Origin: Bacillota bacterium
Lineage (GTDB): Bacteria > Bacillota > Clostridia > Ch29
Direction: 5' to 3'
Assembly: GCA_013540605.1 (NCBI GenBank)
Contig: JABVCK010000027.1
Location: 124,001 to 188,000 of the forward strand
Length of the DNA: 64,000 bases
Part shown: positions 43,927-60,420 of the stretch, piece after piece
Layout: every line of letters begins with the position of its first letter
Position numbering within the stretch: the first letter of the stretch is position 1
Program-made: the position numbers and the translations under genes
The notes under the pieces: model-generated
Told to the model about the DNA's origin: nothing
Databases searched by the model: none
Seen by the model: only the letters and a program-made list of their open reading frames with translations

Positions 43927-43979
43927 TAGCATATTTATATTTATTCCCTATCTTATTATTTTTAAATCAGGAATCAAAA

Positions 43980-44147
43980 GGGGACATTCCTAAGTCGAAA
44001 GGGGACATTCCTAAGTCGAAAGGGGACATTCCTAAGTCGAAAGGGGACATTCCTTTGCAAAAGGTGTGTCCCCTGTCATCTAAAGGTGTGTCCCCTGTCA
44101 TCTAAAGGTGTGTCCCCTGTCATCTAAAGGTGTGTCCCCTGTCTTTT
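43980..44147. repeat. Tandem array: 4 x 21 bp and 4 x 22 bp facing repeats with GGGGAC/GTCCCC core
   Basis: Four copies starting GGGGACATTCCT (at 43980, 44001, 44022 and 44043, period 21) are followed by four copies of a unit with AAAGGTGTGTCCCCTGTCAT (at 44060, 44082, 44104 and 44126, period 22). The two halves face each other, because GGGGACA and TGTCCCC are complementary, so the transcript could fold into a long imperfect hairpin. The units have no spacers, so this is not a CRISPR array. Related sequences recur elsewhere in the window. Confidence 0.9.
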
Positions 44148-44196
44148 TAATCTTAATTGCCAAGAAGTCTCCCACCTTTTTAGATGACGAGATGAA

Positions 44197-44225
44197 TTGG
44201 CAAACATTTGTTTCTATGGTACAAT
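44197..44225 (+). promoter_or_regulatory. Sigma-A-type promoter of the structured RNA
   Basis: TTGGCA (44197-44202) and TACAAT (44220-44225) are separated by 17 bases. The start of transcription would be near 44232, exactly where the base-paired region begins. Confidence 0.55.
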
Positions 44226-44231
44226 AAAGTT

Positions 44232-44462
44232 ATCAACGTTCTTTGACAACTGGATATATGAGGTTGCATGGAGAACTCGAAAAACTCTGAATGCGAAAAC
44301 CAAGCGATGAGTTAGCCTTCCATGCGTAAAATATCCAAGGCACTAAAGAATCCGTACAACGGACATCTAGGGCAGGGACTGCCCGAAGTAAAGCCTGTGG
44401 AGAACTACAGTTGGTTCTAGGAAACAGGAAGCCAACCACTTCTATAAGTGGCGGTAGTTCAC
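44232..44462 (+). ncRNA. Orphan TnpB-associated omegaRNA candidate ending in an IS605-type right end
   Basis: No protein-coding frame is convincing. The plus-strand transcript can form nested stems: GGATAT/ATATCC, GCATGGA/TCCATGC, GGGCAG/CTGCCC, TCCGT/ACGGA, CTGT/ACAG, GGTT/AACC and a final CCACTT/AAGTGG hairpin. It ends in GGTAGTTCAC, the same end found behind the broken tnpB at 59227 (on the other strand). In IS200/IS605 elements the RNA guide of TnpB ends at this hairpin and takes its guide from the flanking DNA. There is no tnpB here. The Rfam-type IS605-orfB motifs are the likely match; an unrelated structured RNA is the alternative. Confidence 0.55.
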
Positions 44463-44650
44463 TCCTTTGTTATCCTGACTATATGTTTGGCCTTTTTGTT
44501 TTGTTCCTCAAAACTTACCCAACCGTGAAATGTTGACACAAATTCACCGTAAGCAGTTTTATCAATAAGGGCATCCTCTTCTTCAGAATCCCTTTGATGC
44601 ATTTCTACCTTATTTCCTCTTCTGTTCTCTTTATTTTCCAGGTTTTTCAC
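44459..44650 (-). CDS. Small hypothetical protein, 3' end truncated by the IS605-type end
   Basis: 63 codons, charged (EEEDALIDKTAYGEFVSTFH in the middle), with no recognised domain. The stop TGA is made by the last bases of the transposon right end, so the original gene continued. A GTG at 44650 and an ATG further in (44602) are possible starts; GGGGAGG lies directly in front of the GTG. It may be a host gene fragment and not a functional gene. Confidence 0.35.
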   Translation of the reverse strand: MKNLENKENRRGNKVEMHQRDSEEEDALIDKTAYGEFVSTFHGWVSFEEQNKKAKHIVRITKE

Positions 44651-54033: not shown

Positions 54034-55683
54034 TCGAGTAGGAGGGGGTGATTAACCCCCGTCCTCTCAGTCGAGTAGCCCGAAGGAGTTTCACCTGCAG
54101 GCTCTCACAGAACCGTACGTGAACCTCTCGATTCATACGGCGGTTCGAAAAGATATTAATGGACTAATGAATATCTCTCGGATATCGACTTTAGGCCTAA
54201 ACTTTTAATGCTTATGTTCAGCTTGTATATCCTGTATTCCATGCTCATCGCATTACTCCTTGAGGTTATCTCCTTTAGCTTGGCCCTAAACCTTGCCAGT
54301 GACTTCGGGTGTACCCTTATCCCTATACCAGTATCTTTGCGGTAAAAGGAAAACCCCAAAAATTTCAGCCGCCATGGCCTGTCAACAGCACTCTTTTCCC
54401 GGTTTACCTTAAGCTTTAACTCGCCTTCAATAAACCGTGTGATACTGGCCATTACCCTATCCGCTGCCTTTTTGCTTTTGACATAGATATTTACATCATC
54501 GGCATATTCTGCAGAATTTAAGTCCCCTTTTCTCCAGTTCCTTATCCAGTTCGTTTAGCATGATATTGGATAGTAGCGGACTTAAAGGTTATCTGGAGGA
54601 ATTTGCGGATAAGGGATATCACTCCCTTATCCTTGATGGTTTTATGGATTAGGCCCATCAGCTTGTCATGGTTTACGGTGTCAAAGTATTTGGCAAGGTC
54701 AATATCAACAGTCCAGTCTAACCTGCCTCTATGTATTCCTTGCATTTTAACACAGCCTGTTTTGCATCCCTTCCTGGCCTAAATCCATAGCTTCCTTCTG
54801 AAAACTGCTTCTCAAAGATGGGACTTAATACCTGGGCTACTGCCTGCTGTACCACTCTGTCCACTACTGTTGGTATGCCAAGTAGTCTTTTGCCTCCGCC
54901 CGGCTTTGGTATTTCTACCCGCCGCACAGGTTTTGGCTTATACGTACCCTCCCGGATAGACTGCCTGATTTGGTCACCATTTTCTTTTAGGTACTGTAGA
55001 AGTTCATCCACTGTCATCCCATCAATTCCATGGCTGCCTTTGTTTGACTTAACCCTCTCGTATGCCCTGTTCATGTTGTTTCGGTCAAGTATTTTATCAA
55101 GCAGACTTCCGGCATATTCACTGCCATCGTTTTGGTCTTTGGAAGACGTAAACGAAATACTCTGCACTCCTGCGCTGCCTTCGGGTTCCACCCTATTCTC
55201 ACACAGGTAGTCTTCAATATGAAGTTGGCTGCACTCATTGCATTCCGTAGTGTACCTCAAAATCCCAAAACCATCCTTTCGTTCGGTCCTTCCCATGCCG
55301 TATATATCCGGTACGGTACTATGACCTCTGCTGACTTCTGACAGTTCAGCCATACATCACTGCATGGGTTGTCATGGGGAAAATTCATTCCCTGCCTGAC
55401 GTACCTGCCAGACCTCCCCGATTAAGAGCAGCAACTTTCATCCCATGTCACCGCTGCATTTACACCGTGGAATTCGGGTAGTGTTGGACTTCGTTTTGTT
55501 CAGCAAACTCGTCCGTTCCACATATGCCTTGTATGCAGTTCCTGTCCGTCGGTGCGGGACTTTGCCTGCAGCTTCCTTCAGATTTCACCTCACGGTGAAC
55601 ACCCTTGCTGTTTAGCTAATGGTTCCCACTACCAAGCCCATAGCGGACTTTCACCGCCTAGTTGCTGCCCATGTCGGGCGAAC
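54033..55683 (-). mobile_element. Degenerate group IIC intron (about 1.65 kb)
   Basis: The 5' end reads GTTCGCCCGACATGGGCAGC with GGTGAAAGTCCGCTATGGGC following, typical of bacterial class C introns (consensus GTGCG, here GTTCG). The 3' end has a domain V-like hairpin (GAACCG ... CGGTTC, near 54105-54145), a domain VI hairpin with a bulged A (about 54041-54060) and CTACTCGAT. The ORF inside is broken. It lies right behind the ATPase terminator, as class C introns do. Confidence 0.8.
54156..55353 (-). pseudogene. Group II intron reverse transcriptase/maturase (LtrA-like), broken
   Basis: Pieces in different frames: 55353-54718 has the start of the RT (GSHGIDGMTVDELLQYLKEN, then GGGKRLLGIPTVVDRVVQQA and GSYGFRPGRDA); 54745-54542 continues with DIDLAKYFDTVNHDKLM; a short frame holds SPLLSNIMLNELDKELEKRG; the catalytic YADD lies near 54495-54507 in a further frame; 54452-54156 has FLGFSFYRKDTGIGIRVHP. 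The GTPQGG region and about 100 residues of domain X are missing. It cannot make an active protein. Confidence 0.85.
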
Positions 55684-58565: not shown

Positions 58566-58602
58566 CCAGGGGACACACTTATAAAGAATGTCCCCCATAT
58601 AT
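58566..58602. repeat. REP-like GGGGACA...TGTCCCC hairpin in the ATPase leader
   Basis: AGGGGACACACTT and AATGTCCCCC form facing arms around a short A/T-rich loop. It lies between the promoter candidate and the riboswitch and has the core of the array at 43980-44147. Confidence 0.65.
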
Positions 58603-59226: not shown

Positions 59227-60420
59227 GTGAACTACTCGCCACCTACGCTTTCGCTTAGAGGTGGGAACTTCAAAAGAAGTTTGATCTTCTAGACCCTTAT
59301 TCTTTTGGGCTGGTACACACAACCCCTATTGACTATTCCCTTTATGGACAATTCGCCTTTACATTTTCGCAAGATATTTAGAACTCCATTGACATCCGCA
59401 TTTATGATTTTTCCTGTTGAAGATAGGAACAGTCCTCGGCTTATTCTTTTACCTTTATAGTCTTCCTGCCTACCTATTTCTTCATATGCCAGGGCATCAC
59501 ATTTTGATGTATAGCTTTCTTCTTGGGTTATAACTTCTATTCCATACTTTTCTGCTTTATAGGTAATATAGTGTATCAGTTGGATATATGGTATGGATAC
59601 GAATTTTTGATTGGTTGCTTTACTCATTTTACTTTCGGTTTTCCATTCCACCCTTTATTATAGCCTATACATATGGTGTTAATATTGTTTTTTACTGCTT
59701 CATCAACGATGGTACAGGATATTTTATGCATTTTATCTCTCATATAGTTGTTTCTTTTTTCATAGAGGGATGCTATGTTTTTTGTCATATGCCGCCCATT
59801 GCATTTCATGACGGTTGATTTTTCCTTTGCCAGTTTCTTGTTAAACAGTCTGTTATAAGATTTTATTTCTCTACCATCTATGATGGTAGGCTGACTGAAT
59901 TTATCCGAAACTATTGTGCATAGGTTATCTATTCCTAAATCTATTGCCATAACAGCAGTATTTTTATCTACTGGACTGTGCTCCTTTGTATCTATGTATT
60001 TATATGCGATTTTAAATCATCCGTAATAGGGCTGTATTTGTACTTCTTTTACAGGCTGATCTATTATATGGGGCGGTATGGGAAAATACAGATATTTCAC
60101 GTTATATTTTATTTTTATTTGCTTCGGTAGGGATAATCGTATTTGGTTTTGAATAATTTTGAAATGTGCCGGTGTGAAAGTGATTTCTCTTACACCGTCT
60201 TTGGGAAGATAGTGAGGAATACTGGCTTTAGCTGTATATTGTCCTGAGCGCTTTTTGTGGATCAGCTCAAAGAAAGATTTGAATTCTTCATTTACGGATT
60301 TCATCACCTGCTGTGCTATCTGTGATGGCAAAAGCTTATAATTCTCATTATATTTCACGGTATGATAGGCTTTCTCATAAGCAAGATATTTTCCTGTTTC
60401 AAAGAAGTACTGTCTTACCG
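59227..60420 (-). mobile_element. Remnant of an IS200/IS605-type TnpB element
   Basis: Holds the broken tnpB and ends in the right-end hairpin CCACCT...AGGTGG with GTAGTTCAC (59227-59265). No tnpA and no left end are found; the other side joins a marR fragment. The right-end motif is the one also seen at 44462. The segment before the end probably once encoded the omegaRNA. Confidence 0.8.
59289..60420 (-). pseudogene. tnpB: TnpB (OrfB) RNA-guided nuclease gene, broken
   Basis: Three pieces: the N-terminal part (about 60420-60017, YFFETGKYLAYEKAYHTVKY) ends at a TGA; the same frame resumes with RuvC-I in MAIDLGIDNLCTIV (59950); then a frameshift near 59640 leads to the frame with SIPYIQLIHYITYKAEKYGI, ESYTSKCDALAYE and the last RuvC motif INADVNGVLNILRK, up to 59289. 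The acidic residues of RuvC are still recognisable, but the gene cannot give one protein. The first residues are lost at the junction with marR. Confidence 0.85.

Follow-up and report, generated by a model that had tools for sequence, protein, structure and literature searches.

The analysed stretch of 64,000 nucleotides, hereafter the window, carries an element without a protein gene between the ctsR operon and an elongation-factor-G gene. Judged by its sequence, the interval 44151-44462 is a complete non-autonomous IS200/IS605-type element with its own promoter and a predicted omegaRNA, starting directly after TTTAA (44146-44150) and ending at 44462. The sequence-only reading had proposed a stand-alone omegaRNA-like transcript here, and the promoter, the folded RNA of about 230 nt and the IS605-type right-end hairpin that it described were all recovered. 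It had missed the TTTAA motif and the left end, which make the locus a whole mobile element, as well as the boxA at 44238-44251. The following features were assigned.

44146-44150, + strand: target motif TTTAA (TAM), insertion point of the element (motif statistics and comparison of copies)
44159-44201, + strand: left-end hairpin, outer stem GCCAA...TTGGC, inner stem partly decayed (alignment with the left ends of other copies)
44197-44225, + strand: promoter TTGGCA-17-TACAAT with an extended -10 (TG), TGGTACAAT
44238-44251, + strand: boxA-like RNA start GTTCTTTGACAACT (match to GNNCNTTGANAACT; likeness to rRNA boxA)
44238-44356, + strand: conserved 5′ RNA domain with helices P1-P3 and a proposed pseudoknot (97.4 bits with model R1; covariation)
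44238-44244/44345-44351, + strand: P1
44251-44257/44331-44337, + strand: P2
44266-44273/44318-44325, + strand: P3
44262-44265 (GGUU) with 44298-44301 (AACC), + strand: proposed pseudoknot
44370-44462, + strand: predicted omegaRNA scaffold, ending in TTCAC (aligns with the post-tnpB scaffolds of L011, L021, L023 and L031)
44370-44384, + strand: scaffold hairpin 1
44394-44398/44424-44428, + strand: scaffold stem CCTGT/ACAGG
44436-44451, + strand: right-end hairpin CCACTT-AAGTGG
44463-44482, + strand: flank, the would-be guide TCCTTTGTTATCCTGACTAT, starting at the first base after TTCAC

The outer stem of the left end overlaps the -35 box of the promoter, and the DNA fold of this end reached -3.8 kcal/mol in the window copy compared with about -10 kcal/mol in intact copies. 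The promoter, boxA, all helices and the right end are intact. The RNA at 44232-44463 folded better than shuffled sequences (z -2.67, with 4 of 200 shuffles equally good), and since it finishes at the right end of the element, the flank would become the guide. The right end GTAGTTCAC, which finishes at 44462, has the same nine letters as the end behind the broken tnpB near 59228, as had been noted. No trace of tnpB was found near the element itself, again as first read, and its ends, TTTAA, own promoter and lack of tnpB support the earlier option of a stand-alone non-autonomous element. It is present as a single copy in its own 3.35-Mb genome.

Several other identities were considered. A short frame (NPYNGHLGQ...) in 44349-44420 was rejected as a fossil of the TnpB C terminus, because tnpB of the relatives stops at or before that point. 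A group I or II intron or a known riboswitch was rejected after no Rfam match was obtained for the window locus and eight relatives, and the bcr repeats of Bacillus cereus, considered from the literature, were set aside. The covariance-model search proposed in the sequence-only reading returned no relevant family for the window element in Rfam (release 15).

Just upstream of the element, at 43974-44147, lie two adjoining short tandem arrays, with units of about 21 nt (AAAGGGGACATTCCTAAGTCG) and of 22 nt (AAAGGTGTGTCCCCTGTCATCT) in roughly opposite orientation, and a similar GGGGACA motif occurs near 58570. On the minus strand, the window also holds pieces of a group II intron (54070-55599, Rfam) and the broken tnpB (59228-60380), which has the right end GTAGTTCAC but lacks the scaffold seen in the element at 44 kb.

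Relatives and mobility of the family

A search through the family yielded a single homologue that shares the 5′ half (L003), and BLAST of phage and plasmid collections gave L010 (Thermus phage, 3′ half) and L009 (full copy). Degenerate patterns built from these first relatives picked up three copies of Bacillus type and one further copy in viral contigs, along with 52 stretches from contigs of genomes. Sixty-two loci with the 5′ domain were found, plus further model matches, in Bacilli and Clostridia; carriers include Anoxybacillus, Geobacillus, Aneurinibacillus, Virgibacillus, Aliibacillus, Paenibacillus, Clostridium, Maledivibacter and Lachnospiraceae, among others. Many of these genomes show conservation and covariation of stems, promoter and ends, which establishes the anatomy at family level and places the element far beyond chance. 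No TnpB-like reading frame was found at the 62 loci, up to 8 kb, or, with a larger reference set, at 74 loci, and at the level of sequence we regard the absence of tnpB from the family as demonstrated.

The covariance model of the 5′ domain, run against 86 sources (mostly tnpB- or tnpA-type loci), found only the window element and, weakly, the truncated copy L017. In the class, 7 of 391 genomes carry the domain. By these comparisons the 5′ domain is a new RNA with covariation that is confined to gene-less elements and has no entry in Rfam release 15; in annotated plasmid records, matches spanning most of the element bear no annotation. The most fitting description of the family is that of IS605-type elements that consist of a guide RNA only and whose 5′ domain is led by boxA.

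Variants of this plan were also seen. In Thermus phage TMA (L010, 2428-2599) an intergenic gap holds a left end, a promoter (TTGAAA-16-TATAAT) and the scaffold, without the boxA domain and without tnpB. L009 (CP079755.1, Klebsiella grimontii pNY3A) contains a 92% copy of the Bacillus-type element among Firmicutes-like genes, which suggests that this record is misassembled or contaminated. Six longer elements (L030, L024, L017, L254, L256 and L258) have an additional large structured segment between the extended -10 promoter and the boxA domain, and no Rfam match was found in L017, L024 and L030. In L263 and L264 (G098) the conserved GAGCGAAAACCAAGC motif is found outside P3, in a hairpin of its own downstream of the 5′ domain, as though it formed an independent module.

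Mobility of the family is documented by near-identical copies with different flanks within single genomes, at least 10 in V. chiguensis, 7 in A. rupiensis, and 3 each in Maledivibacter and Aliibacillus. Copies in one genome diverge up to TTTAA. Of the 35 elements whose left end could be read, 32 have this motif no more than 30 nt upstream of the left-end stem. As in other non-autonomous IS200/IS605 elements, end hairpins go with a fixed 5′ target motif and no target duplication, with the weakened left end and single copy of the window element to be kept in mind. The flank-derived guides were distinct in 46 of 50 cases, and guides that differ at nearly every site are expected from transposition and not from a fixed regulatory target. 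The genome check for guide targets found no TTTAA-flanked match elsewhere in the element's own genome with up to three mismatches, and no empty insertion site was found among the family's relatives, where near-matches were unrelated chance sites.

Y1 transposase genes occurred in 8 of the 9 genomes searched. Left ends matching the gene-less elements were found in four genomes (G391, G393, G396 and G401). Among autonomous tnpA-tnpB elements, such left ends are present in those of A. rupiensis, Lentibacillus, C. tepidiprofundi and Maledivibacter. In L016, a CRISPR spacer (G347:C1:718836-718864) matches an element-type right end in 29/29 bases (ACCACTTCTATAAGTGGCGGTAGTTCAC region), and the array thus seems to have acquired a spacer from such an insertion.

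RNA structure, promoter and boxA

Covariation in the 5′ domain was demonstrated with alignment A1 of 28 sequences, in which 92.3% of cells were paired and 62 two-sided changes were counted, compared with 14.5 in shuffles; the signal was gone when partners were slid by 1-3 columns. Support was best for P3 and P2, while P1 was supported in only part of A1 (76% of cells). The pseudoknot GGUU/AACC is proposed and not proven because it is nearly invariant. The 3′ half aligns with the scaffold that comes immediately behind the stop codon of tnpB in L011, L021, L023 and L031, and this shared scaffold gave 63 two-sided changes against 18.9 in shuffles. By this homology, the 3′ half is the omegaRNA scaffold of autonomous tnpB relatives. 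Other gene-less elements have different scaffold types behind the same 5′ domain, so the domain appears to act as a module.

The RNA starts with GTTCTTTGAYAACT, GTACATTGACAACT, GCACTTTGACAACT or GAACCTTGAAAACT in different carriers. The rRNA leader and spacer boxA reads GTTCTTTGAAAACT and GAACTTTGAAAACT in P. megaterium pBM400, GTACATTGAAAACT in an S. aureus record, GCACTTTGAAAACT in a C. difficile record and GTACCTTGAAAACT in Radiobacillus, and the pattern in the elements is the same as that of the rRNA leader and spacer boxA in five Firmicutes records. Plasmid-borne rRNA operons were used for this comparison because 16S ends sought in the carrier genomes gave no match, probably through masking. 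Near the RNA 5′ end, the strict boxA pattern was present in 25 of 38 unique sequences and a looser one in 34 of 38. In 31 of 39 unique elements an extended -10 (TGnTAnnnT) stood at most 25 nt ahead of boxA, in most cases at a distance of 10-14 nt, compared with 5% of shuffles.

The boxA of the element is the only plus-strand match to GNNCNTTGANAACT in the 64 kb of the window. A second boxA pattern in the window's genome (C11) sits in apparently protein-coding sequence and was dismissed as chance. In the window copy an imperfect inverted boxA copy, AGTTATCAACGTTC, precedes boxA (44228-44251), so that the extreme 5′ end could fold over it. BoxA binds NusB-S10 and renders polymerase resistant to termination (PMC10250234), and in a synthetic array it increased pre-crRNA roughly ten-fold (PMC7862264). 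By analogy, boxA may act in antitermination in the gene-less elements.

These features bear on another account, a plain miniature element of the PATE type in which only the ends matter, TnpA moves the element and the RNA is passive ancestral baggage. The copies in V. chiguensis, which multiplied with Y1 transposases and without TnpB, fit such an element, as does L032, where a left end is joined to the scaffold without promoter or 5′ domain. However, the RNA interior covaries and keeps invariant positions across Bacilli and Clostridia, and the promoter-boxA spacing is conserved; selection on the ends alone is insufficient to explain this, and we consider the account unlikely.

Candidate partner proteins and proposed mode of action

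Of 16 carrier genomes, 14 contain TnpB. The gene-less copy of C. tepidiprofundi resembles a resident tnpA-tnpB element in its scaffold (85% over 98 nt without gaps) and left end (86%), and the resident TnpB frame is intact (376 aa); this copy was read from G098, which is probably the same species, judging by its identical copies in L185 and L030. In Maledivibacter, the gene-less and resident tnpB elements agree in 76% of the scaffold and 86% of the left end and have a specific run of about 60 nt in common, though the examined copy of tnpB carries a frameshift. When elements of one of these two genomes were compared with those of the other, many gaps were required. No TnpB was found in the draft assembly of V. 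chiguensis with PF07282 and PF01385, and many Y1 genes are present there.

The genome of the window, checked for a TnpB of matching type, contains none that is intact and has the element's scaffold; its resident TnpBs have other scaffolds, as the best-preserved ones do, or are broken. No TnpA with matching ends was found among the four TnpA loci inspected, whose ends differ. The earlier idea of use in trans therefore gains support at the level of the family only, from one genome with an intact matching TnpB.

The explanation that we consider probable is a gene-less IS200/IS605-type element with a boxA-led RNA that is moved and loaded in trans and whose copies are retained. The family would then live as a hyperparasite on TnpA/TnpB transposons, providing its own omegaRNA in trans. 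A Y1 transposase from elsewhere would move the element. NusB-S10 bound to boxA would make RNA polymerase resistant to termination and allow it to traverse the structured RNA and right-end hairpin and reach the guide, with the 5′ domain standing in for the 3′ end of the tnpB message in autonomous elements. A TnpB from elsewhere would trim and load this RNA, and the loaded TnpB would cut insertion-free copies of the locus, by which each element copy would be kept.

For this explanation count the 62 TnpB-less loci, the near-identical copies with different flanks after TTTAA, the covariation of the 5′ domain and of the tnpB-shared scaffold, the extended -10 just before boxA together with the identity to rRNA boxA, the frequency of TnpB in carriers and the matches in C. 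tepidiprofundi and Maledivibacter. The finding that about 116 nt ahead of the guide suffice for the ISDra2 omegaRNA (PMC10097598) and the boxA effect on pre-crRNA count on the same side. Against it count V. chiguensis, where two Pfam models detected no TnpB, the frameshift in Maledivibacter, the weakened left end of the window copy, the lack in its genome of an intact TnpB with this scaffold and, among the four TnpA loci inspected, of matching ends, and P1, which would pair boxA and could block it.

An RNA working without TnpB was also weighed, in which the boxA/pseudoknot domain recruits Nus factors or S10, for example for read-through into, or regulation of, flanking genes. The boxA-like RNA start, the presence of the 5′ domain in genomes without TnpB and its junction to several scaffold types would suit this, but the scaffold is maintained and covaries as a TnpB scaffold and tracks the resident tnpB element in two genomes, and we judge such a role very unlikely.

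For the window copy alone, the chance that it is a dead relic, as the first reading allowed, comes close to even: it is single, its left-end fold is weakened and the resident TnpBs are broken or have other scaffolds, but its promoter, boxA, helices and right end are all preserved. These assessments overlap, as the relic concerns the window copy and the other alternatives the family. The family-level reading of loading in trans is stronger than any activity of the window copy, because the latter has a weakened left end and its genome holds no intact same-scaffold TnpB and, at the four TnpA loci inspected, other ends. Tentatively, and a little short of even confidence, we propose an unannotated, widespread class of guide-RNA-only mobile elements that captured the ribosomal boxA antitermination signal for expression of the RNA and reprograms the TnpB of other transposons, each copy protecting its own insertion.

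Comparison with known guide RNA systems

Stand-alone IscB omegaRNAs and HEARO RNAs are, like the elements described here, OMEGA guide RNA loci without a nuclease gene. The gene-less elements differ from them in a 3′ rather than 5′ guide, a TnpB-type scaffold and a boxA start, and no HEARO match was found for the window element in Rfam. TldR guides are characterised by a conserved guide to a host gene and an adjacent tldR. The earlier suggestion of a guide for a nuclease-dead TnpB-like repressor is not indicated, given the diversity of the guides and the lack of an adjacent TnpB-like gene.

The omegaRNA (reRNA) of IS200/IS605 TnpB elements has the same scaffold, right-end hairpin, flank guide and TTTAA-type target motif. 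However, the gene-less RNA has its own promoter instead of being processed from the tnpB message, and a boxA-containing 5′ domain replaces the 3′ end of tnpB. PATEs and miniature IS605 elements likewise have left and right ends and no protein gene and are mobilised in trans, as is probable for the gene-less elements too, which have in addition a promoter and a full-length, conserved guide RNA. BoxA also precedes a long untranslated guide RNA in the leaders of natural CRISPR arrays, as PMC7862264 relates, citing Stringer 2020; the gene-less element differs in being a single mobile guide with boxA embedded in a structured domain. The boxA link offers a directly testable account of how transcription of an untranslated guide RNA could pass the RNA's own terminal hairpin and enter an arbitrary flank. 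The family suggests that free-standing guide RNAs, each with a dedicated promoter, allow the RNA-guided nucleases of transposons to be shared and parasitised, which parallels the separation of tracrRNA and arrays from the effector gene in CRISPR systems.
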